Translations under genes and position numbers: made by a program | DNA from: Brevibacterium aurantiacum | Lineage (GTDB): Bacteria; Actinomycetota; Actinomycetes; Actinomycetales; Brevibacteriaceae | Assembly (NCBI RefSeq): GCF_900169065.1 | Contig: NZ_FXZB01000001.1 | Location: 248,001 to 312,000, forward strand | Reading direction: 5' to 3' | DNA length: 64,000 nt | Shown here: positions 31,309-64,000 of the stretch, piece after piece | Layout of the letters: the number at the start of each line of letters is the position of its first letter | How positions within the stretch are numbered: position 1 is the first letter of the stretch | The notes under the pieces: model-generated | The model's database searches: none | Told to the model about the DNA's origin: nothing | Seen by the model: the letters and a program-made list of their open reading frames with translations, nothing else

Positions 31309-31490
31309 TCAGTGCTGGTCCAGGCGAATTCGCCTGAGTTCGCGAGGTTCAGTTCTGGTCGATGAGGCTGCGTCTGAGTTGACGCAACCCCGCTCCGGTT
31401 GAACGTGCCCAACTCTGGTTGAACGAATCTGAGTTCTGTTTGAACGGGACTCAGTTCTGTTGAACCAGTCTCAGCTCTGGTTGAAGAAGC
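31309..31490. repeat. Array of degenerate ~20.5-bp repeats derived from the sepF tail
   Basis: Recognisable units recur at about 31389, 31410, 31430, 31451 and 31471, and weaker ones at 31309, 31349 and 31372, a phase of 20-21 bp. Read on the minus strand the unit is close to TTCAACCAGAGCTGA, the last codons (Phe-Asn-Gln-Ser-stop) of sepF. The array fills much of the 328-bp gap between sepF and yggT, and I see no gene there. Confidence 0.8.
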
Positions 31491-37436: not shown

Positions 37437-39053
37437 TCACTTCTTTCTCTTTCTGGCAAGTACGGCGAACGACGATCTCACTCGATCTTTGTGCACCTTG
37501 ATCGCGGCGGGTGCACCGTCCTCTGTTCTGGCGAAGGACAGTATCACCCCGACGGCGAGCAGAGACGCGACGATGGAGGATCCGCCATAGGACACGAAGG
37601 GCAGGGGCAGGCCGATGACCGGCAGAAGTCCGGTCACGACAGCGATGTTGATTGCGGCCTGGCCGATCAGCCAGGCGAAGAGTCCGGCCGTGGTGATCTG
37701 GATGAATCTGGACTTCGAGCGCAGGATGACCCGAATCATTCCGCAGGCCAGGGCCACGAACATCAGGATCACGGCCAGTGAGCCGAGGAGTCCGAGTTCT
37801 TCGCCGATGATGGCGAAGATGAAGTCGTTGTGAGCCTCGGGCAGCCAGGACCATTTCTCTCGGCTGGCACCGAGCCCCACTCCCAGCCAACCACCGGAGG
37901 CCAATGAGAACAGTCCGTGGTTGGACTGCCAGGCCTGGCCGGTGATGTCGGAGGCGCTCTGGTCTGCGTGGCCGGTGAGTGCCGCGGTGATGCGATTGAG
38001 CCGGTTCTCCGAACTGAAGACGAAGAACGCGGCGACAGCGGCCAAGCCGCCGAAGAGCAGAAGGAAGTACTTCCATGGGAAGAAGCCGATGAACAGACAC
38101 ACGAGTGCCATGGCCATGAGCACCAAGGCCGTGCCGAGGTCGTTGCCGCCGACGACGAGGCCGACAGCGAGGATGATGCCCGGGACGACGGGGATCATGG
38201 CGTGGCCGAAGGTCGTCATCTTTCCATATTTGCTGGCCAGCACGGCTCCCAGCCACACGGCCAGGGCAATCTTGAGGAATTCGGAGGGCTGCAGCTGGAA
38301 GCCGCCGAACTGGATCCAGTTGGCGTTGCCCTTCGTTGACTTGCCGAGTCCGGGGATGAAGACGGACGCCTGCATGCCCACGCCGAGCAGCAGCGCCCAC
38401 CATGACACTTTCCGCCACACGTGGACCGGGAAAAACGAGGCCGCGACCATGAGGATGATGCCCAACGCGACGAACCCCGCCTGCTTGTTGAAGTAGGCGA
38501 AGGACGATCCCTCTCCCCCGTCGTAGGAGGTGATGGAGGACGCCGAGAGGACCATGACGAGTCCGAGCGACGTCAGCGCGAGGACCGAGACGAGAATCAG
38601 ATAGTAGGTCGTGAGCGGGTAGGCAGAGACTCGCCCGAACTCACGGCGCACAGTCGACAGCATGGTCCGTACGGCACCGGTCCCGGGTCGATTCTCTGTA
38701 TCGGTCGCCTGAGGGCTGTGAGCGCTCGTCGCCTGTTTCCGGGTGCGTGAGGCGCTGGCCCCGGCGGGCTTCTTCGGCGAGTGTTTCTTCGGTGCCTGTT
38801 TCTTCGCTGACTGCTTCGTCGCGGCCGACTTCGTGGCCACAGACTTCTTCGCTGTCGACTTCTGCTGCGACTGAGTCGCCTGCTGTGACAGCGGCTTGGG
38901 CTTCGACTGCGACAGCGACTTCTGCTGGGACCGAGGCTTCCGCTGAGGCTGTGACTGCGACTTCTGCTGTGACTGCGACTTCTGCTGTGACTGCGGTTTC
39001 ACGGCCTGGGGCTTGCGCTTGGCCTGCGGCTTCGCGGTTGTCTGCCGTCCCAT
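37437..39053 (-). CDS. ftsW: Septal peptidoglycan polymerase FtsW with a long basic N-terminal extension
   Basis: A 538-residue SEDS glycosyltransferase that polymerises lipid II at the septum with FtsI. Residues 1-130 are a low-complexity Gln/Lys/Ser extension with repeats of the type SQQKSQ, then AKK/SPKKP, with no membrane helix. The ten-helix SEDS core starts near residue 148 (PLTTYYLILVSVLALTSLG). Core motifs: VMVLSASS, GKSTKGNANWIQFG, QPSEFLKIAL, GNDLGTALV and PVIGLPLPFVSYGGSS. The start MGRQTTAKPQ at 39053 lies 1 nt after murD; later starts would lose only the extension. Confidence 0.94.
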   Translation of the reverse strand: MGRQTTAKPQAKRKPQAVKPQSQQKSQSQQKSQSQPQRKPRSQQKSLSQSKPKPLSQQATQSQQKSTAKKSVATKSAATKQSAKKQAPKKHSPKKPAGASASRTRKQATSAHSPQATDTENRPGTGAVRTMLSTVRREFGRVSAYPLTTYYLILVSVLALTSLGLVMVLSASSITSYDGGEGSSFAYFNKQAGFVALGIILMVAASFFPVHVWRKVSWWALLLGVGMQASVFIPGLGKSTKGNANWIQFGGFQLQPSEFLKIALAVWLGAVLASKYGKMTTFGHAMIPVVPGIILAVGLVVGGNDLGTALVLMAMALVCLFIGFFPWKYFLLLFGGLAAVAAFFVFSSENRLNRITAALTGHADQSASDITGQAWQSNHGLFSLASGGWLGVGLGASREKWSWLPEAHNDFIFAIIGEELGLLGSLAVILMFVALACGMIRVILRSKSRFIQITTAGLFAWLIGQAAINIAVVTGLLPVIGLPLPFVSYGGSSIVASLLAVGVILSFARTEDGAPAAIKVHKDRVRSSFAVLARKRKK

Positions 39054-48220: not shown

Positions 48221-48652
48221 TCAGATCACTCCGGGGATCACCTCGTTCTCACGTTCAGCGAATGCCTGCTGAGCGCCGACCAGGTAGTTGTCCCATGTCG
48301 GTGAGTCCCAGATCTCGACGCGGTTGCCCATGCCGATCACTGCCACTTCCCGATCAAGTGATGCGTACTGCCGCAATATGTTCGGAACCGTGATGCGTCC
48401 CTGTTTGTCCGGTTGGTCCGCAAAGGCCGCCGACAGGAACACACGCTGGTAATCGCGGGCTTCCTTATTCGTCTTCGGCGCGTTCTGGATTCGCTCATGC
48501 TCGGCTTCGAACTCCGTGGTGGGGAACAGGGTGAGGCAGTTCTCCTGTCCACGGGTCAGTACGAGACCGGGCGAAAGCTCCTCCCGGAACTTTGCGGGCA
48601 GGATGAGCCGACCTTTGTCGTCGAGCTTCTGCAAATGAGTGCCCAAGAACAT
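48221..48652 (-). CDS. mraZ: Transcriptional regulator MraZ
   Basis: A 143-residue protein with two SpoVT-AbrB-type half-barrels, each with a DxxGR motif (KLDDKGRLILPAKFRE near residue 10; DKQGRITVPNILRQ near residue 85). MraZ forms ring-shaped oligomers that bind closely spaced TGG-type repeats upstream of the dcw operon and usually repress it. The ATG follows GAAAGGGGTGAGACGAC. Candidate boxes lie 51-66 nt upstream, with a mirror set toward moxR. Confidence 0.97.
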   Translation of the reverse strand: MFLGTHLQKLDDKGRLILPAKFREELSPGLVLTRGQENCLTLFPTTEFEAEHERIQNAPKTNKEARDYQRVFLSAAFADQPDKQGRITVPNILRQYASLDREVAVIGMGNRVEIWDSPTWDNYLVGAQQAFAERENEVIPGVI

Positions 48653-48702
48653 GTCGTCTCACCCCTTTCGAAACCCAATTGGCTCCGATAGCAACCACAG
48701 TA

Positions 48703-48718
48703 CTCCACTTCCCTCCAC
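48703..48718 (-). promoter_or_regulatory. MraZ-box pair in the mraZ promoter
   Basis: On the minus strand this reads GTGGAGGGAAGTGGAG, two GTGGAG units with a 10-bp period, matching the one-turn spacing of known MraZ boxes. A -10-like TAGATT lies just upstream (minus strand). Confidence 0.65.
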
Positions 48719-48778
48719 CTAATCTAGTATCTGACCCCATTGCGGTCTCATTGACCTATAAAAGCCCAGGTCAGATAG

Positions 48779-48794
48779 GTGGAGGAAAGTGGGG
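48779..48794 (+). promoter_or_regulatory. Mirror MraZ-box pair facing moxR
   Basis: GTGGAGGAAAGTGGGG is nearly identical to the box pair on the mraZ side and has the same 10-bp period, but points the other way. Both pairs are preceded by GGTCAGATA in their own direction (inverted arms 48728-48736 and 48769-48777). The intervening DNA is the divergent promoter. Confidence 0.6.
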
Positions 48795-48935: not shown

Positions 48936-49037
48936 CGGGGAGGAAAGTGGGGAGGGAAATGGGGAGGAAAGTGGGGGTCCCGGTGGAGCGAAGTGGGGAG
49001 GAGTGTGGGGAGGGAAGTGGGGAGCGAAGTGGAGGGG
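48936..49037 (+). repeat. Array of TGGGG units with mostly 12-bp period in the moxR leader
   Basis: TGGRG units (TGGGG or TGGAG) start at 48948, 48960, 48972, 48984, 48994, 49006, 49018 and 49030, plus a degenerate unit near 48936. Spacing is 12 bp except one 10-bp step. The usual unit is AGTGGGGAGGGA. The array is G-rich on the coding strand, with many G3-G4 runs that could form G-quadruplexes in DNA or leader RNA. It lies in the 483-bp mraZ-moxR gap. The peptide-like frame through it (repeating GKWG) is not regarded as a gene. Confidence 0.85.
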
Positions 49038-49135: not shown

Positions 49136-50125
49136 ATGTCGATCAGCCAAGAAGGTACACAGACCAATTCCGTGATCGGTGCCGAGCACATCGAATGGGT
49201 GCAGCAACTCACCTCACGGGCACGCACAGCAATGAACGCCGTCCTCGAAGGCAAGGACGAAGCCGTCGGACTGTCGCTGATAGCGCTCCTGGCAGGGGGC
49301 CATGTCCTCCTTGAGGACGTGCCCGGAGTCGGGAAGACTCTGCTGGCTCGGGCCATGGGCAAAGTCGTCGACGGTTCTGTGAGGCGCATCCAGTTCACTC
49401 CCGACCTGCTCCCGACAGACGTCGTCGGTGTGAACCTGTTCAACCAGGAGACCCGTCACTTCGAATTCCGCCAGGGTCCGGTGTTCGCCAATATCGTCAT
49501 CGCCGATGAGATCAACCGCGCCTCCCCCAAAACCCAGTCTGCGATGTTGGAGTGCATGGCCGAGGGGCAGGCCACCATTGACGGTGAGACCTACCAGATG
49601 CCCTCGCCATTCATCGTCGTCGCTACTCAGAACCCGATCGACATGGAAGGCACGTACGCCCTTCCCGAAGCGCAGCGCGACCGCTTCATGACTCGCATCT
49701 CCCTTGGCTACCCCAATACTGCTGACGAAATCGACCTGCTCGACAACCAGATCGAGCATGATCCGCTCTCCAGTGCGACTCCGGTCACCAGCCTTGAGCA
49801 GATCAACCAGGCCCGAGGAATCGTCCGACATGTCAGTGCAACCCGAGAGCTGCGCGAATACATCGTCTCCATCCTCCATGCCAGCCGAAACGACGAGGCT
49901 ATCCTCCTCGGCTCCTCCCCCCGCGGCGGTGTCCACCTCCTCCGTGCGGCCAAGGCTCGCGCCGCGCTTTCGGGACGCACCTTCGTGACCCCGGACGACA
50001 TCCAGGCGTTGGCTCCCTACATCCTGGCTCACCGAATCATCCCGCGCGATGGCGACGACTCCGAGCTGGCAGCCGAGCTGGTCGGACGGCTCCTGGCCCG
50101 AGTGCCCATTTCGACGGTTCAGTGA
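49136..50125 (+). CDS. MoxR-family AAA+ ATPase
   Basis: A 329-residue AAA+ chaperone-like ATPase. Walker A is GVGKTLLARAMG, Walker B is IVIADEINRASPKTQSAMLE, sensor 1 is VVATQNPIDMEGTYALPEAQRDRF, and a C-terminal lid follows. MoxR proteins pair with DUF58 (von Willebrand-like) proteins, as here. The start MSISQEGTQ at 49136 is used. An in-frame ATG at 49046, with GGAGGGGG upstream, would add 30 residues and is a serious alternative. The gene diverges from mraZ and is first of three. Confidence 0.92.
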   Translation: MSISQEGTQTNSVIGAEHIEWVQQLTSRARTAMNAVLEGKDEAVGLSLIALLAGGHVLLEDVPGVGKTLLARAMGKVVDGSVRRIQFTPDLLPTDVVGVNLFNQETRHFEFRQGPVFANIVIADEINRASPKTQSAMLECMAEGQATIDGETYQMPSPFIVVATQNPIDMEGTYALPEAQRDRFMTRISLGYPNTADEIDLLDNQIEHDPLSSATPVTSLEQINQARGIVRHVSATRELREYIVSILHASRNDEAILLGSSPRGGVHLLRAAKARAALSGRTFVTPDDIQALAPYILAHRIIPRDGDDSELAAELVGRLLARVPISTVQ

Positions 50126-50129
50126 CCAC

Positions 50130-51278
50130 ATGCGTCTGAGCACCTCAGGAATCATCTTCGTCCTCGCCGGGGCGGCACTGATCGTGACCGCCTATCGGTT
50201 CTCGCTGCCCGGGCTGCTGCCTGCGGGGATTCTGCTTCTTGCGCTGGTCTTCCTCTCGGCACTGCTGATCACCTGGGGAACCAGGCGTGTTTCGATCACT
50301 CTGCGCACAGGGCTGCCCACCGTGGCGCTGCCTCAGTCCAGAGACCGCTACCCGCTTGCCCACGAGGGAAAAGAGGTCGAGGTCGAGGCTCTGGTGACGA
50401 ACACCGGGCGTCTGGCGATCCCGGCCTCGACGATCGACTTCGTGGCGGCCGAAGGATTCGGCGATTCCACGGTCGGACAGGTCCCTCCGCTGGCTCACGG
50501 CGCCTCTCAGACGGTCTTGACGTCCTTCACCCCGCATCGTCGGGGTCTGAGCGGAGTTCAGACCGTTCTCATCACTGTCTCGGGTCCCTTCGGCCTCGTC
50601 ACAAGGAAGAAGAAGGTGATCGCCGGTCACCCTGTTGCAGTATCGGTGCCCATCCTTCCGGCACGGATCCCCTCCGACTCGGCGATCAGACCAGCCCGAC
50701 TCGACGATGGCAAGTCTCGTCCGGGCCACACAGCTCGAGACTTCCACACCCGGGAATACGTCCCGGGAGACGACCTCAGACACGTCCATTGGCCGAGCAC
50801 CGCGAAGTCCGGTGAGCTCATGGTCCGACACGAAGCCGACGAGGAGACGCTCTATGCGCTCATCGTCGTCGATCTCAAGGGTGAGGGCGAACGTCCGGAC
50901 TCCCTCGAGATCGAATTCCTCCTTGCCGCAGCCGCAGCAGCCGGAACGGCGTTCCTGCGTGCAGGCTACGAGGTCTTCGTCGTTGCACCCGGCCATCAGA
51001 TCAGGTTCAAAGGACAACGCGATATCGACCGACTGCGATTGCTCACCGCCCTCGTCGAGGCCGGCAGAGTGCAACTTCCTGCCCATGACAATCCCAACCA
51101 CATCCTCATCTGTGCCGTCGACGACGCTCGTGGGCAGGAGCTGGCCGCACAGTTCTCCCGCCGCGTGCCGGTGACCGTCCGCAGCCTCGATGACATCAAT
51201 GACCTGACGATGGTGGGTCTGAGCGAGGACCTGCCCGAATCATGGACCGCGTTCGATTCGAAGCGGGTGAAGCGATGA
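50130..51278 (+). CDS. DUF58 domain-containing protein
   Basis: A 382-residue protein with two N-terminal membrane helices (about 6-24 and 28-48). An Ig-like stretch precedes the DUF58 core, with its signature YVPGDDLRHVHWPSTAKSGELMVRH (about residues 208-232) and a vWA-like fold after it. DUF58 proteins are presumed MoxR partners in assembling or activating other proteins. It starts 4 nt after moxR and overlaps the next gene by ATGA. Confidence 0.9.
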   Translation: MRLSTSGIIFVLAGAALIVTAYRFSLPGLLPAGILLLALVFLSALLITWGTRRVSITLRTGLPTVALPQSRDRYPLAHEGKEVEVEALVTNTGRLAIPASTIDFVAAEGFGDSTVGQVPPLAHGASQTVLTSFTPHRRGLSGVQTVLITVSGPFGLVTRKKKVIAGHPVAVSVPILPARIPSDSAIRPARLDDGKSRPGHTARDFHTREYVPGDDLRHVHWPSTAKSGELMVRHEADEETLYALIVVDLKGEGERPDSLEIEFLLAAAAAAGTAFLRAGYEVFVVAPGHQIRFKGQRDIDRLRLLTALVEAGRVQLPAHDNPNHILICAVDDARGQELAAQFSRRVPVTVRSLDDINDLTMVGLSEDLPESWTAFDSKRVKR

Positions 51279-53626
51279 GCACCGACACACGTGAGAGCAC
51301 CGAGAAGCAGTCTCCCGCCTTGCTCGAGGCCTGCACCGTATTTGTGGCCATGGTCTTGGCCGCCGTCGGACTCTCGGCCGTCTTCTCCGACTTCGCCTGG
51401 CTTCCCCCCGTCCTCATCTCGATCTTCCTCATCGTCATCGTCGGGGCGATCTTCCGCAGCATCCCGGTCCTCCGAGCCACTGGTGCGGCCGTCATCGCGC
51501 AATGCCTCGTGGGGCTCATCGCAGTTCTCGTACTCTGTGCACCCAGCACGCTGATCCTCGGCGTCATCCCCACCGGCAGCTCTTTCACCAGTGTGATCGA
51601 TCTGCTGTCCTCCGGGGTCAGCGATCTGTACGCCACGGTTCCGCCGGCTCCGAGCACTCCCGGTTTCACCACGATGCTGACCATCGCGTTCACTCTGATC
51701 ACCATCCTCATCGACGGCCTCGTCTGCGACCTCAAAGCTCCCAAGGTCAGCGGTGTTCTGCTCTTGGTGCTCTGGATGATCCCCGTGTTCTTCGCTCCCA
51801 CCCAGGTGCAGTGGTGGCATGTGGTCGCGATCTTGGCGGCCTTCCTCATCCTCATGCTCAGCCCGTATCTCCCAGCAGCGAAGTGGCGCGGCGGTCTGAC
51901 CGCGACCGTGGCCGGAGCTGTGGCCGTTGCCATCGGCATCGGGCTCCCCGTGCTGCTTCCGGAGGTGCCGTCGCTGCCCAATCGCGCGGCAAGCGACAAG
52001 GGCGACCTCACCGTGACGAACCCGTTCCTCGATCTGCGTGCTGATCTGGGCGACCGTGACGACTCGACTCTCTTCGACTACACGAGCACTGAATCGCAGG
52101 GGCAGCCGATCAGGCTGACATCGATCAACTCCTTCGACGGTCAGACCTGGGCACCGACCCCGTTCCCGCTCGATTCGTTTGCGATCGCAAATGAAGGTCT
52201 GCCCTGGCCGCAGGGGCTCCCACGGAGCAAGAACTACAGCCAAGAGCGCATCGACGTCTCTATCACTGACGAATACGATCAGCAGTATCTTCCTTCCCCA
52301 TACGCTCCACAGCAGCCGACAGGTTTGGATCGGCGTTGGATCTATGACGAGAAGTCGCTGACGGTCGTCGGCAATGGTGAGAAGTCCGGTGGGCAGGACT
52401 ACTCGATGGAGTACGTGTCCATCAACCCCGACGTCAAGGACCTGCAGAGTGCAACACCGGTGAACACCAGTGACTTCGAAACCGAACTCGAAGTCCCGGA
52501 CAGTCTGCCCACCAGCGTCAAGGAGACCGCAGAGAAGGTCACTGCGGATGCGGACAACCAGTGGGAAGCCGCTGTGCTGCTCCAAGCCTATTTCCGCAGC
52601 GGTGACTTCGAGTACTCGCTGGATGCCCCGGAAAGGGCCAGCGGAGATGCGATCTCTGATTTCCTCGTCGACAAGAAGGGCTACTGTGTCCAGTTCTCGT
52701 CGGCGATGACGATCATGGCCCGAACCATGGGAATTCCCGCACGCATCGGAGTCGGCTTCGGTGAGGGAAGCAAGTCAGGTGAGGGCTACGAGGTCAGCAT
52801 GCAGGATTCGCATGCATGGCCGGAACTGTACTTCGAAGGCGCCGGGTGGGTTCGGTTCGAACCCACTCCAGGTGGACCCGCCGGTGACCCGCCTAAGTGG
52901 TCGGTCGCCAGCGGCAGCACCGATGGTGACTCCGAAGAGGATTCCGAAGAGTCCTCCTCACCCTCAGAGGAGCCCACAGACGGCGCCGAAGAGTCCGAGG
53001 CAACGGAGTCGGAGAGCTCCAGCGAAGAGACCTCAGCTGCGGGAGAGCCTGCCGGTGCGAGTATCGGCAAGTACCTCTGGGCAGGTCTCATCGTTTTGGT
53101 GATCCTGCTGCTCGCGGCGATCCCCGCGCTGTGGAGGCTGATCCTTCGTCGTCGTCGCACAAGCGATCCCAAGCAGCTCGAAAAGGTCTGGACCGAGGTG
53201 CGAGCGCTGTCGACCGACTACGGTCAGAGCCTTGACCCGAGCAAGACGCTGAGGTTCAACGAACTCGTGCTGGCCAGCAGGGCCCAAGGCGGGACCGAAG
53301 AGCCTGACAGCTCCTCTGCAGAGTCTGATTCCGGCGCTGACTCAGTCTCCTCGGGAACCCGAGGAGACTCCGGGGATCAATTCACCGCGCTGCGCAGCCC
53401 AGCTCCCCCAGCGGGTACACGCACTGCCGGCGATGACACCGCCCTGTCAGCCTTCGTTGATGCCCTTGAGGCGCACCGCTACGGCGGCAGTGAACAGAGC
53501 ATCTCGTCAACTGAGGTCAGTGCCCTCATCGACGAGGTCAGGTCCGATCTGTCGGCCAATGCCACACCCGGCAGTCGGATCACCGCCCGCATCTGGCCGG
53601 CCAGCATCTTCAATCCGCCTCGCTGA
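51275..53626 (+). CDS. Transglutaminase-like membrane protein (DUF3488/TgpA type)
   Basis: A 783-residue protein. About six N-terminal helices (residues 22-235) precede an extracellular region with a transglutaminase-like core. The catalytic Cys471 is in GYCVQFSSAMTIMART, the His513 is in DSHAWPELYF, and the third position is Glu in GWVRFEPTPGG where many family members have Asp. A Ser/Glu-rich linker, another helix (about 607-627) and a cytoplasmic DUF4129-like tail follow. It completes moxR-DUF58-TgpA. Its substrate is unknown; position opposite mraZ suggests a wall or envelope link. Confidence 0.88.
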   Translation: MSTDTRESTEKQSPALLEACTVFVAMVLAAVGLSAVFSDFAWLPPVLISIFLIVIVGAIFRSIPVLRATGAAVIAQCLVGLIAVLVLCAPSTLILGVIPTGSSFTSVIDLLSSGVSDLYATVPPAPSTPGFTTMLTIAFTLITILIDGLVCDLKAPKVSGVLLLVLWMIPVFFAPTQVQWWHVVAILAAFLILMLSPYLPAAKWRGGLTATVAGAVAVAIGIGLPVLLPEVPSLPNRAASDKGDLTVTNPFLDLRADLGDRDDSTLFDYTSTESQGQPIRLTSINSFDGQTWAPTPFPLDSFAIANEGLPWPQGLPRSKNYSQERIDVSITDEYDQQYLPSPYAPQQPTGLDRRWIYDEKSLTVVGNGEKSGGQDYSMEYVSINPDVKDLQSATPVNTSDFETELEVPDSLPTSVKETAEKVTADADNQWEAAVLLQAYFRSGDFEYSLDAPERASGDAISDFLVDKKGYCVQFSSAMTIMARTMGIPARIGVGFGEGSKSGEGYEVSMQDSHAWPELYFEGAGWVRFEPTPGGPAGDPPKWSVASGSTDGDSEEDSEESSSPSEEPTDGAEESEATESESSSEETSAAGEPAGASIGKYLWAGLIVLVILLLAAIPALWRLILRRRRTSDPKQLEKVWTEVRALSTDYGQSLDPSKTLRFNELVLASRAQGGTEEPDSSSAESDSGADSVSSGTRGDSGDQFTALRSPAPPAGTRTAGDDTALSAFVDALEAHRYGGSEQSISSTEVSALIDEVRSDLSANATPGSRITARIWPASIFNPPR

Positions 53627-53642
53627 GCCACCTGACTGCCCC

Positions 53643-53681
53643 GACGCTGCCCCGGATGCCCCACGCATCCGGGGCAGCGTC
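53643..53681 (+). terminator. Strong terminator after the transglutaminase operon
   Basis: A 17-bp perfect stem (53643-53659 with 53665-53681, GACGCTGCCCCGGATGC) has a 5-nt loop. It starts 16 nt after the stop. Confidence 0.85.
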
Positions 53682-53707
53682 GTCTGAGGCAGCGGGCAAG
53701 AGCGCAG

Positions 53708-53765
53708 TTCTGCCGATGAGTGTGCACTTCTGCTGACAAGTGTGGTTCCTGCCCCTGCGTGCAGA
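53708..53765. repeat. Degenerate ~20-bp tandem repeat
   Basis: TTCTGCCGATGAGTGTGCAC and TTCTGCTGACAAGTGTGG, then a third TTCCTGCCCCTGCGTGC, start at 53708, 53728 and 53746. They lie in the 368-bp gap between the transglutaminase and DUF3040 genes. Confidence 0.6.
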
Positions 53766-53840
53766 GACACACGCGATTACCACGTCGTGTGTCGGACAAG
53801 TCCTGCAGGGGCCGACGCATGGAGCCAGAGCGAGTCTACG

Positions 53841-53895
53841 GGTCCATACACCGTCGCTACCGGTTCATACGCGGTCGCTAGGGACTCACACGCAC
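53841..53895. repeat. 21-bp tandem repeat, 2.5 copies
   Basis: Copies begin at 53841, 53862 and 53883 with pattern GGTxCATACxCxGTCGCTAxx; the third copy is partial. The same convergent gap also holds an inverted repeat ACACACG / CGTGTGT (53767-53792). I see no gene in the gap. Confidence 0.65.
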
Positions 53896-53901
53896 ACGAA
53901 A

Positions 53902-53926
53902 AAGCGCCCTCGAGACGAGGACGCTT
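53902..53926 (-). terminator. Terminator after the DUF3040 gene
   Basis: On the minus strand the 11-bp stem AAGCGTCCTCG / CGAGGGCGCTT (one G-U pair in RNA) has a TCT loop and is followed by TTTCG, a classical intrinsic terminator 69 nt after the stop. Confidence 0.8.
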
Positions 53927-53994
53927 CGTTGGTGCGCGTTGGTGTGATCAGCAGTTGTCGGAGGGAATCTGCTCAGCCGGGGACGGCCGTGCAA

Positions 53995-54405
53995 TCATTC
54001 TCCGCGCTGGCGCTTCTCCCACCGGTCTTCGATGCGGTTCATGAAACCTGACGGGCCCTTCGCCTCAGGCTTGGGACCATTCGACGGCTGTGCACGCTTC
54101 GCTTTGTCGCCGATCTGACGCGGCCGACTGAAGGCCCAGTACATACCGGCAACCATGAGACCGAATCCGACGACGCCGAGGATGATCCACCATGCGGTGT
54201 TCGCGACCATCGAGATGGCGAAGATCGTCGCGGCAAGCCCGACCAGCGTGACCAGAATGCCCACCACGAATCGCTTCGCGGAGAAGCCTGGACCATTGGC
54301 GGCTGCCTGTGTTTCGGAAATATTGCGTGCGAAACGTGGGTCTTCACTGCGCAGCTGCTTCTCCAACTGATCGAGCAGCTGCTGTTCGTGATCGGAGAGT
54401 GGCAT
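53995..54405 (-). CDS. DUF3040 membrane protein
   Basis: A 136-residue small membrane protein. MPLSDHEQQLLDQLEKQLRSEDPRFA is the DUF3040 hallmark, and two membrane helices follow (about 50-72 and 77-97). The tail is basic and Pro-rich. Function is unknown. DUF3040 genes lie near mraZ and dinB in many actinobacteria. The start at 54405 matches the family. Confidence 0.92.
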   Translation of the reverse strand: MPLSDHEQQLLDQLEKQLRSEDPRFARNISETQAAANGPGFSAKRFVVGILVTLVGLAATIFAISMVANTAWWIILGVVGFGLMVAGMYWAFSRPRQIGDKAKRAQPSNGPKPEAKGPSGFMNRIEDRWEKRQRGE

Positions 54406-54535
54406 CTCGAACCCCCGTTTCCTTACTCTGGCCTGATGACACAATCATAGTCTCTGAACCCTGAAAAAACATCTTGAGGACCTTTGCATCCCCCGGATTC
54501 TCACCACGTCCTCAGACTATGGCGCACCTCACCGC

Positions 54536-55795
54536 CTAAACATGGTCAGGACCCGTATTGTCATGCTCAGGACGCTTCCTGAGCAGAGAGGCCTGCGAGA
54601 TCGCGGCAGTCCCGAACTTCTTGCGCACATCGTCCAGAGCAACCTCGGCTTCTCTGCCCGAATCCTCGGCCTCATCCAATCTCACCTGGCGCCCGCTGGC
54701 CGAGAAGTCCATCAAGCCGGCCGCTCGGACTCCCAGCAGGCGCACCCCTTTCGACTTCTGCTCCCGCAGATTCCTCATCGCTGGCCGCAGGGCCTCATAG
54801 ATCTCACGGGCCAGGTCTGTCGGGGCATCGAGAGTGATCGACCGTGACAGCGTCGTGAAATCGGCCAAGCGATATTTCAATCCCAAGGTGGTCGCGACCT
54901 TGCCATCGGCCCGGACCCTGTGTGCCACCTTGTCCGCCAACCTCAGCAGCTCGTGTTCGAGTTGGCTCAGGTCCCAGACGTCCTCGTTGAACGTGTGCTC
55001 GGCACTGATGGACCGATCCTTCACCTGCCTGTCCATCCCATGCGAGTCCAGCCCGTGGGCGCTGCGCCACAGATGATGCCCATGGGCCCCAAAGACCCGG
55101 CCTGCCCATGCTTCGTCGACGGCTGCCAGATCACCGATCAGTCGAATGCCGTATCTGAAGAACCCCTCCTTCGTCTTCTCCCCCACGCCGGGAAGCGCTT
55201 CGATCGGCATCGGGTCGAGGAACTCCCGAGTCGCCGACAGCGGGACGAGCAGCTGCCCATGCGGCTTGGCTCGAGTGGACGCGAGTTTCGCCACCACCCG
55301 ACTGCCGGCGATGCCCACAGATGCGCTCAACCCCGTCTGTGCCTCGATCTCGGCTCTCAGCTGTGAGGTGATCCGCACCGGGGAACCCAATCTGCGGACG
55401 GCTGCAGAGACGTCGATATAGGCTTCGTCGACACTGACCTGCTGAAAATCGGGCGTCACCTGAGCGACCAGATCGAAGACCTTCTGCGAGTACGAGGAGT
55501 ACAGGCCATGGGAAGGAGGGATCACCTCGGCGAAGGGACACAGATTCATCGCTCGACCCATCGGCATGGCCGCATGGACACCGAACTCTCGGGCCTCGTA
55601 GCTGGCTGAGACCACGACTCCCCGCCCGCTGCGACCACCGACGATGACGGGTCTGCCCACAAGTTCAGGGCGGCTCAGAAGCTCCACCGAGACGAAGAAG
55701 GAGTCCATGTCGAGATGGAGCATTGTGGCTCCGGTGTCGTCCGTGCCGAGACGGCTCAGATCGCCGCCGGAACGTGCCAGCTGTTTACGACTCAT
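54536..55795 (-). CDS. dinB: DNA polymerase IV (Y family)
   Basis: An about 419-residue translesion polymerase. Catalytic motifs are MLHLDMDSFFVSVELLSRPE and SVDEAYIDVSAA. A thumb helix-hairpin-helix (PIEALPGVGEKTKEGF) and little-finger domain follow. No clear beta-clamp peptide is seen at the C-terminus (HDNTGPDHV). The start is uncertain: MSRKQLARSG at 55795 is used; a GTG at 55840 is also in frame, and an AAAGGAG lies between. No LexA box is evident in the 67-bp divergent promoter. Confidence 0.93.
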   Translation of the reverse strand: MSRKQLARSGGDLSRLGTDDTGATMLHLDMDSFFVSVELLSRPELVGRPVIVGGRSGRGVVVSASYEAREFGVHAAMPMGRAMNLCPFAEVIPPSHGLYSSYSQKVFDLVAQVTPDFQQVSVDEAYIDVSAAVRRLGSPVRITSQLRAEIEAQTGLSASVGIAGSRVVAKLASTRAKPHGQLLVPLSATREFLDPMPIEALPGVGEKTKEGFFRYGIRLIGDLAAVDEAWAGRVFGAHGHHLWRSAHGLDSHGMDRQVKDRSISAEHTFNEDVWDLSQLEHELLRLADKVAHRVRADGKVATTLGLKYRLADFTTLSRSITLDAPTDLAREIYEALRPAMRNLREQKSKGVRLLGVRAAGLMDFSASGRQVRLDEAEDSGREAEVALDDVRKKFGTAAISQASLLRKRPEHDNTGPDHV

Positions 55796-55862
55796 CGAGC
55801 ATCCATGTTGTCTGCGCCTGCTCCTTTCGGCTCCCGTCACTCAGTCCGGGTAGTCTGTAGTC

Positions 55863-63489: not shown

Positions 63490-64000
63490 TCAGGAGCGCG
63501 GACGCTGCTGGAAAATCATCCGGAACTTGCCGATCTGCACATCGGCTCCGTTCTGCAATTCAATCGAATCGATGAGCTGACGACCCACGTAGGTTCCGTT
63601 GAGTGAGCCTGTGTCGCGCAGTGTGAAACCACTTGGAGTCCGAATGAATTCAGCATGCTTGCGCGAAACGGTGACATCGTCAAGGAAGATATCAGCGTTC
63701 GGACTGCGACCCACGGTCACCACATCAGTGTCGAGCAGAATCTGTGAACCCGAGTCCGGGCCCGAAACGACGACGAGAAGCGCATCCGTGTCCTGCAGTC
63801 CTTCAAGGTCGGGCACAGGGTAGATCTCACCGGTATGCGGATCCAGGATCCCCTGGAACTGCTGGTTACCGGAGTCGCCGGAGACCGGCTCATCGTTGCG
63901 ATACTGCTGCTCCTGGCCGCCGTACTGCGGCTGATTGCCGTACTGCTGACCCTGGCTGCCGTACTGCTGTCCCTGGCTGCCATACTGCGGCTGATTACCC
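63490..64000 (-). CDS. FHA-domain protein with Gln/Gly/Tyr-rich repeats (partial, 5' end outside window)
   Basis: The C-terminal FHA domain binds phosphothreonine: VVTVGRSPNADIFLDDVTVSRKHAEF, RDTGSLNGTYVGRQ. The frame stays open to the window edge at about 63999. It encodes a repeat-rich region of QYG/NQPQYG/SQGQQ type (about 34 residues seen) and then HTGEIYPVPDLEGLQD. A GTG at 63816 could give a minimal GarA-sized protein, but the open frame and repeat composition favour a longer protein. It is a likely target or partner of Ser/Thr kinase signalling. GarA/OdhI-type pThr peptide was not seen in the part present. Confidence 0.85.
   Translation of the reverse strand, partial: GNQPQYGSQGQQYGSQGQQYGNQPQYGGQEQQYRNDEPVSGDSGNQQFQGILDPHTGEIYPVPDLEGLQDTDALLVVVSGPDSGSQILLDTDVVTVGRSPNADIFLDDVTVSRKHAEFIRTPSGFTLRDTGSLNGTYVGRQLIDSIELQNGADVQIGKFRMIFQQRPRS

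Follow-up and report, generated by a model that had tools for sequence, protein, structure and literature searches.

An array of GTGG(A/G)G units between mraZ and moxR in Brevibacterium as a candidate amplified distal operator for MraZ

The gap between mraZ and the divergent moxR gene of Brevibacterium aurantiacum carries a long array of G-rich units that is best read, with a probability of roughly 0.65, as an amplified distal operator for MraZ. The position of the array is conserved, its length is not, and its 12-bp phase is largely illusory, concealing the 10-bp spacing of half-sites (GGAG-N4-GTGG). On this reading from sequence comparison, the array would be tied mainly to autoregulation of mraZ, and the moxR genes on its other side may be co-regulated by it.

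The mraZ-moxR gap and its array

The window, i.e., the 64,000-nt stretch of DNA that was analysed, comes from a genome (G000) of 4,147,494 bases on 70 contigs. In it, mraZ is followed on the same strand by rsmH and other dcw genes, and 483-484 bp separate the mraZ start (48652, minus strand) from the moxR ATG (49136, plus strand). The features of the locus are as follows:

48221..48652, minus strand: mraZ, 143 aa (Pfam MraZ PF02381, E 4e-37, two stretches)
48693-48698, minus strand: imperfect third box GTGGTT in the sequence, 10 bp beyond the proximal pair
48703-48719, minus strand: promoter-proximal pair GGTGGAGGGAAGTGGAG, an exact match; the whole box set spans 48693..48719
48778-48794, plus strand: first distal pair GGTGGAGGAAAGTGGGG, forward, an exact match 75 bp from the proximal pair
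48936..49034, plus strand: array of eight TGG(G/A)G units and one degenerate CGGGG unit, from the sequence, TRF and chain counts
48982-48998, plus strand: canonical pair GGTGGAGCGAAGTGGGG within the array, an exact match and the third copy in the genome
49124..49129, plus strand: GACAAT, 6 nt before the ATG, a putative -10 element of moxR
49136..50125, plus strand: moxR, which leads the divergent moxR-DUF58-transglutaminase set (Pfam AAA_3, E 1.2e-62; AAA_lid_2)
50049..51278, plus strand: ORF of a DUF58 protein as mechanically listed (Pfam DUF58, E 2.5e-8)
51242..53626, plus strand: TgpA_N/transglutaminase membrane protein (Pfam TgpA_N, Transglut_core)

The DUF58 ORF probably starts later than listed, close to the moxR stop codon. 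Between mraZ and DUF3040/DinB, the moxR-DUF58-transglutaminase genes (window 49136-55840) have a cassette-like appearance. The imperfect GTGGTT box (48693-48702) overlaps TACTGT, a possible -10 element of mraZ. Relatives of MraZ in the PDB, matched by sequence only, were 9qlr, 9qlg, 9sx6 and 1n0e, and the predicted structure of the protein was poor (mean pLDDT 44.9, from a shallow alignment).

The TGG(G/A)G units of the array start at 48948, 48960, 48972, 48984, 48994, 49006, 49018 and 49030, with steps of 12, 12, 12, 10, 12, 12 and 12 bp, so that six of the seven literal TGGRG-to-TGGRG steps measure 12 bp; the degenerate CGGGG unit lies 12 bp upstream of the first. Like the direct repeats of known MraZ boxes, the eight units share a GTGG core and a single orientation, and the unit consensus across the genus is GTGGgG. 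TRF reported a period of 12 bp with 8.2 copies at 48937-49032. When the gap was subjected to 5000 dinucleotide shuffles, the longest chain with 10- or 12-bp steps was 3, as it was in 5000 shuffles of the array alone, compared with the 8 observed. Both the coordinates and the shuffles thus bear out the sequence-only reading of this DNA, which had described at least eight TGGGG/TGGAG units at 12-bp steps with one 10-bp step. The step from 48972 to 48984 looks like a shortened spacer, since L007 and L009, among other relatives, have 13 bp in its place. On the moxR side the array ends ~100 bp short of the ATG. Elsewhere in the window, TRF found tandem repeats at 38880-38995 (42-bp/18-bp), 31414-31485 (20-21-bp) and 63902-63988 (21-bp).

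Exact box pairs are confined to the mraZ region

The 10-bp pair has the layout GTGGAG-NNNN-GTGGRG. Its exact form, GGTGGAGNNAAGTGGRG, matched three times in the 4.15-Mb genome, each time within the mraZ-moxR gap. Among 57 Brevibacterium genomes with mraZ, 68 exact matches were found in 39, all of them no more than 400 bp upstream of mraZ when coordinates were compared by eye; the motif had no match in the other 18 of the 57, and a reversed control pattern had none in any. Every one of the 68 pairs therefore adjoins mraZ, which in the window is identified by Pfam and adjoins the dcw operon, and this confinement across the genus upholds the proposed link between array and mraZ. With up to two mismatches allowed, the pair matched 22 times in the B. 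aurantiacum genome, 7 times at the mraZ-moxR locus, and the reversed control 25 times. Because exact matches are lacking elsewhere in this genome and the mismatched count is close to that of the control, no further MraZ targets stand out. We also considered whether the units belong to a genome-wide repeat family. The three-unit 12-bp pattern matched five times in the genome, four times in the array and once on contig C21; with that single match outside the array, and with the exact pair restricted to the locus, such a family is unsupported.

Conservation of the array across Brevibacterium

Of the 57 genomes, three (L013, L030 and L115) were dropped from the gap comparison because their contigs end with little or no sequence upstream; the remaining 54, which have moxR on the fetched stretch, comprise 36 close-clade and 18 distant Brevibacterium gaps. 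In all 54, moxR is divergent from mraZ. A forward chain of at least three GTGGRG units with 10-, 12- or 13-bp steps was present in 47 of the 54 gaps and absent from seven, and chains of at least six occurred in 27; outside the genus, the same criterion gave at least three units in 10/80 loci and at least six in none of the 80. The length of the array is therefore as unusual as the sequence-only reading had supposed. Species with the array include B. linens ATCC 9172, B. casei, B. iodinum, B. epidermidis, B. sediminis and B. aurantiacum XU54, and a pair or single unit occupies the position of the first distal pair (about 48778-48794) in most Brevibacterium gaps.

The number of units varied widely, from 2 to 19 by chaining across the close-clade gaps, a procedure that in L026 and L012 selects a late chain, and in L020, L026, L031 and L091 adds a stray ATG-side TGGRG. 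Two close-clade members are exceptions, L026 with a 10-bp pair alone and L012 with short runs, and several distant species carry few units. Within B. permense the array is contracted in Ln26 and full in VKM Ac-2280. Such variability, together with the short forms in L026 and L012, argues that a long array is not essential. Conservation among relatives, proposed as a check on the array, thus extends to its position in most of the 54 gaps but not to its length.

The 12-bp period conceals a 10-bp relation

A typical 12-bp step has the layout GTGGGGAG-NNNN-GTGGRG. When right-aligned with the 10-bp pair, it differs mainly by a single T-to-G change in the first half-site. In 105 of the 125 12-bp steps found in the 54 gaps, window included, GGAG preceded the next GTGG by exactly 10 bp, and the corresponding GG(A/G)G at -10 was seen in just 3 of 54 13-bp steps. 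Positions 5-6 of the 12-bp step (A, G) changed at a rate of ~0.10, equal to that of the first T (0.10); core positions as a whole ranged from 0.01 to 0.11, and the four spacer positions from 0.28 to 0.30. Since the AG changes as rarely as the core T, the concealed 10-bp relation appears to be maintained by selection. The spacing known for MraZ boxes (a 7-nt repeat plus a 3-nt spacer) is accordingly found in the 48982-48998 pair and in these 105 steps, and the earlier description of the array as differently phased gives way, for most of its 12-bp steps, to a concealed GGAG-N4-GTGG arrangement. The 12- and 13-bp steps nevertheless misfit a strict model in which neighbouring subunits of one ring bind at every unit.

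TRF reported a repeat row for 46 of the 54 Brevibacterium gaps, with periods of 12, 22, 23, 24, 35, 36 and 46-47 bp among others. Periods as varied as these fit repeated amplification of box pairs and not selection for 12 bp.

A two-sided layout in other actinomycetes

Outgroup loci were hand-picked for family and genus spread, 40 from a class search (259 genomes with MraZ) and 40 mostly from an order search (144 genomes with a match, Brevibacterium included); leaving out L170 and L198, whose upstream sequence is short, the 80 became 78. Outside Brevibacterium, adjacent GTGGRG units were spaced by 10 bp 190 times, 11 bp 9 times, 12 bp 7 times, 13 bp 8 times and 20 bp 9 times, and in a control region 900-1500 bp upstream the 10-bp spacing occurred once. 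The corresponding counts in Brevibacterium were 187 for 10 bp, 107 for 12 bp and 54 for 13 bp. Four-box clusters spaced 10-12/13-10 were seen in L145, L149, L162, L173 and L203. When the class was searched for triplets of GTGGRG at 12-bp steps, the control pattern also matched frequently; among the matches listed, the sole recognised mraZ locus outside Brevibacterium with a 12-bp triple was G184.

Reverse pairs were found no more than 200 bp from mraZ in 68 of the 78 loci (36/40 of those with moxR beside mraZ and 32/38 of the others; missing in 10) and at 200-420 bp in none of the 78. Forward pairs at 90-420 bp occurred in 45 loci, the distal forward pair being missing in 33, and a control zone at 960-1290 bp contained no pairs. 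These counts indicate an oriented, two-sided layout, which some loci lack: in the sampled actinomycetes it commonly consists of reverse boxes at the mraZ promoter and forward pairs ~80 and 150-300 bp further upstream.

We also compared the boxes with the presence of mraZ itself. Among 37 class genomes without a MraZ match, 12 of genus g30 were examined together with G238, a g30 genome with a marginal match (E 5.9e-4). These 13 large, complete genomes (L219-L231) have no clear mraZ but keep rsmH and a divergent moxR, separated by 596-1280 bp, roomy enough for another gene. In none of the 13 did the 1000 bp upstream of rsmH contain a GTGGRG 10-bp pair, whichever strand was read. The boxes are thus absent where mraZ is absent, in one lineage only, so that the result may reflect a single evolutionary event. 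Because pairs persist without moxR, as detailed below, and vanish without mraZ, the array appears to be tied mainly to mraZ autoregulation and not to a moxR leader.

Alternative explanations

A different assignment would see the array as an operator through which MraZ mainly controls the divergent moxR-DUF58-transglutaminase genes and links cell division to an envelope gene set. The boxes do point toward moxR, and moxR is divergent not only throughout the Brevibacterium gaps but also in all 40 of the 80 outgroup loci where it lies beside mraZ. Distal forward pairs, however, are about as frequent without moxR (20/38 loci) as with it (25/40). In 32 of the 38 loci without moxR a DUF3040 gene (by tblastn) faces mraZ instead, always in that orientation, and a forward pair lies between the aligned end of DUF3040 and mraZ in 17 of these 32, small unlisted genes in between being possible. 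Moreover, across the 36 close-clade gaps the distance from the first array unit to mraZ is 250-342 bp, with quartiles at 284 and 294, whereas that from the last unit to moxR varies over 63-319 bp, dropping to 3-4 bp in the four gaps whose chain takes in a stray TGGRG at the ATG. An array anchored to mraZ in this way loosens the previously suggested tie to the moxR operon, and we regard a primary role at moxR as unlikely. It is extremely unlikely that the array instead belongs to the 5' leader of moxR and tunes its translation or mRNA stability, as its location ahead of moxR, on the coding strand, had suggested. A hexamer of the form [AG]A[CT]AAT lies no more than 16 nt from the moxR ATG in 33 of the 36 close-clade gaps, window included, which suggests a transcription start at or near the ATG and hence a leaderless or short-leader moxR mRNA. 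The ~100 bp between array and ATG and the GACAAT-like hexamer near the ATG make the label "leader" doubtful; with a start at GACAAT, the array would fall outside that transcript. The distance from array to ATG is not conserved, the RNA fold z-score was 0.08 (from a method that does not model G-quadruplexes), and a search of Rfam returned no match above the gathering threshold, only two sub-threshold miRNA matches. Translational tuning of a possibly leaderless moxR gains little from such values.

Replication slippage could also have expanded a functionless G-rich unit as a neutral minisatellite, an explanation that accommodates the range of 2-19 units and the amplification of different periods in different lineages. 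We examined it through substitutions among the 36 close-clade gaps, using, of the 630 possible pairs, 98 with an identity of 0.75-0.999 and 357 with one of 0.60-0.75. The mismatch counts are pairwise and so lack phylogenetic independence; moreover, the motif in a single member of each pair served to define the core, which slightly favours a low core mismatch. For the two identity bands, respectively, mismatch was 0.047 and 0.064 in the array core, 0.155 and 0.250 in the array spacer, 0.204 and 0.257 between the forward pair and the array, and 0.146 and 0.229 after the array, with low values in the first distal pair (0.050 and 0.092) and the proximal box zone (0.043 and 0.087). Compared with the flank beyond the array, the core is thus better conserved and the spacer is not. 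For TGGRG outside the array (148-250 bp), 95% of 119 comparisons showed a change; in the zone from 250 bp to the end, the figure was 20% of 6106. These figures, the slow change of the core relative to the spacer within 12-bp steps, and the retention of a 10-bp relation by the differing periods make neutral slippage very improbable. Equally improbable is control of mraZ or moxR transcription by a G-quadruplex on the G-rich strand, for which there is a precedent near the mraZ promoter of Staphylococcus aureus, where a G-quadruplex lies downstream of the promoter and conserved motifs in other bacteria are claimed (PMC11796246). Four runs of at least three G with loops of up to 12 nt do occur in 33/36 close-clade and 12/18 distant Brevibacterium gaps, and to that extent the G-quadruplex proposed earlier retains a basis. 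Loops of that length, however, are found in only 33/78 other actinomycete loci, and short-loop motifs (up to 7 nt) in just 17/36 close-clade gaps and 22/78 other loci. In addition, the first half-site is mostly GTGGAG, which breaks the G3 run (TGGAG in 122 of the 131 Brevibacterium 10-bp pairs), and what is conserved is the GGAG-N4-GTGG spacing.

Proposed model

In the operator model that we favour, MraZ, a ring-forming repressor from the neighbouring gene, would read GTGG(A/G)G half-sites 10 bp apart. The outer pair would have been multiplied in Brevibacterium, typically to ~5-19 units, through tandem duplication of modules of 12, 22, 23, 24 or 35 bp, each keeping the 10-bp half-site relation. 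The array could then hold several MraZ rings and raise the local MraZ concentration; several rings are envisaged because neighbouring 12-bp units have overlapping half-sites, not all of which can be in use together. Array-bound rings might bridge or loop to the promoter-proximal boxes of opposite polarity, which probably overlap the mraZ promoter. As an outcome, mraZ and the dcw operon would be autorepressed more strongly or in a more graded way, with control of the divergent moxR genes as a possible side effect. MraZ binding, looping and the sign of regulation at the array are all predictions of this model. It is conceivable, given that in Dietzia MtrA is reported to bind the mraZ promoter (PMC9602371), that a regulator other than MraZ, e.g., MtrA, acts at the array.

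A wider proposal, which we offer tentatively and with the odds against it, is that MraZ of actinomycetes might form a two-sided system in which one or more rings join proximal boxes and distal boxes of opposite orientation into a loop. The number of copies in the multivalent Brevibacterium array would then be an evolvable dial for autorepression of the dcw operon, and the array possibly a sink for MraZ or a condensate nucleus that also gates the moxR genes. An oriented second set of operator sites, expanded in one genus, provides a natural series for tests of ring repressors such as MraZ, whose ring is widely conserved, and could be used to probe operator number, spacing, polarity and the control of a division and cell-wall operon by looping.

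Comparison with known systems

Repressors of the LacI, AraC and GalR type use auxiliary distal operators with DNA looping. The mraZ locus resembles them in having paired operators ~60-250 bp apart, one of which is at the promoter. Unlike in those systems, the distal element here consists of many arrayed copies with reversed polarity, and its looping to the promoter is a prediction.

No description of this array or of the mraZ-moxR arrangement was found in the open-licence literature, covered mostly by title and including parts of PMC5055667 and PMC8430577, and no such array appeared by title among the open-licence matches listed for Brevibacterium and mraZ. As in S. aureus, a G-rich tract lies near mraZ; in S. 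aureus, however, the G-quadruplex is downstream of the mraZ promoter (PMC11796246), whereas the Brevibacterium array is >280 bp upstream of mraZ, carries its runs of G on the opposite strand and shows a short-loop pattern that is patchy in relatives.

The closest likeness is to MraZ boxes themselves. According to PMC7761207 and PMC8475190, MraZ assembles into octameric rings, recognises GTG repeats spaced by 10 bp and, in E. coli, acts as a repressor of its own operon. The boxes described in Burkholderia, E. coli, Bacillus and mycoplasmas share with the present locus GTG direct repeats, 10-bp spacing and placement at the mraZ promoter, and several units at the array locus read AAAGTGG, resembling the Mollicutes direct repeats AAAGTG[T/G] given in PMC8475190. 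The Burkholderia site, as presented in PMC7761207, consists of four repeats of 7 nt at one place, separated by 3-nt spacers; the repeats contain GTG, as they do in other bacteria. Brevibacterium differs in possessing a second, opposite set ~125-400 bp upstream of mraZ, and this distal set is made up of many units with 12- and 13-bp joints between modules.
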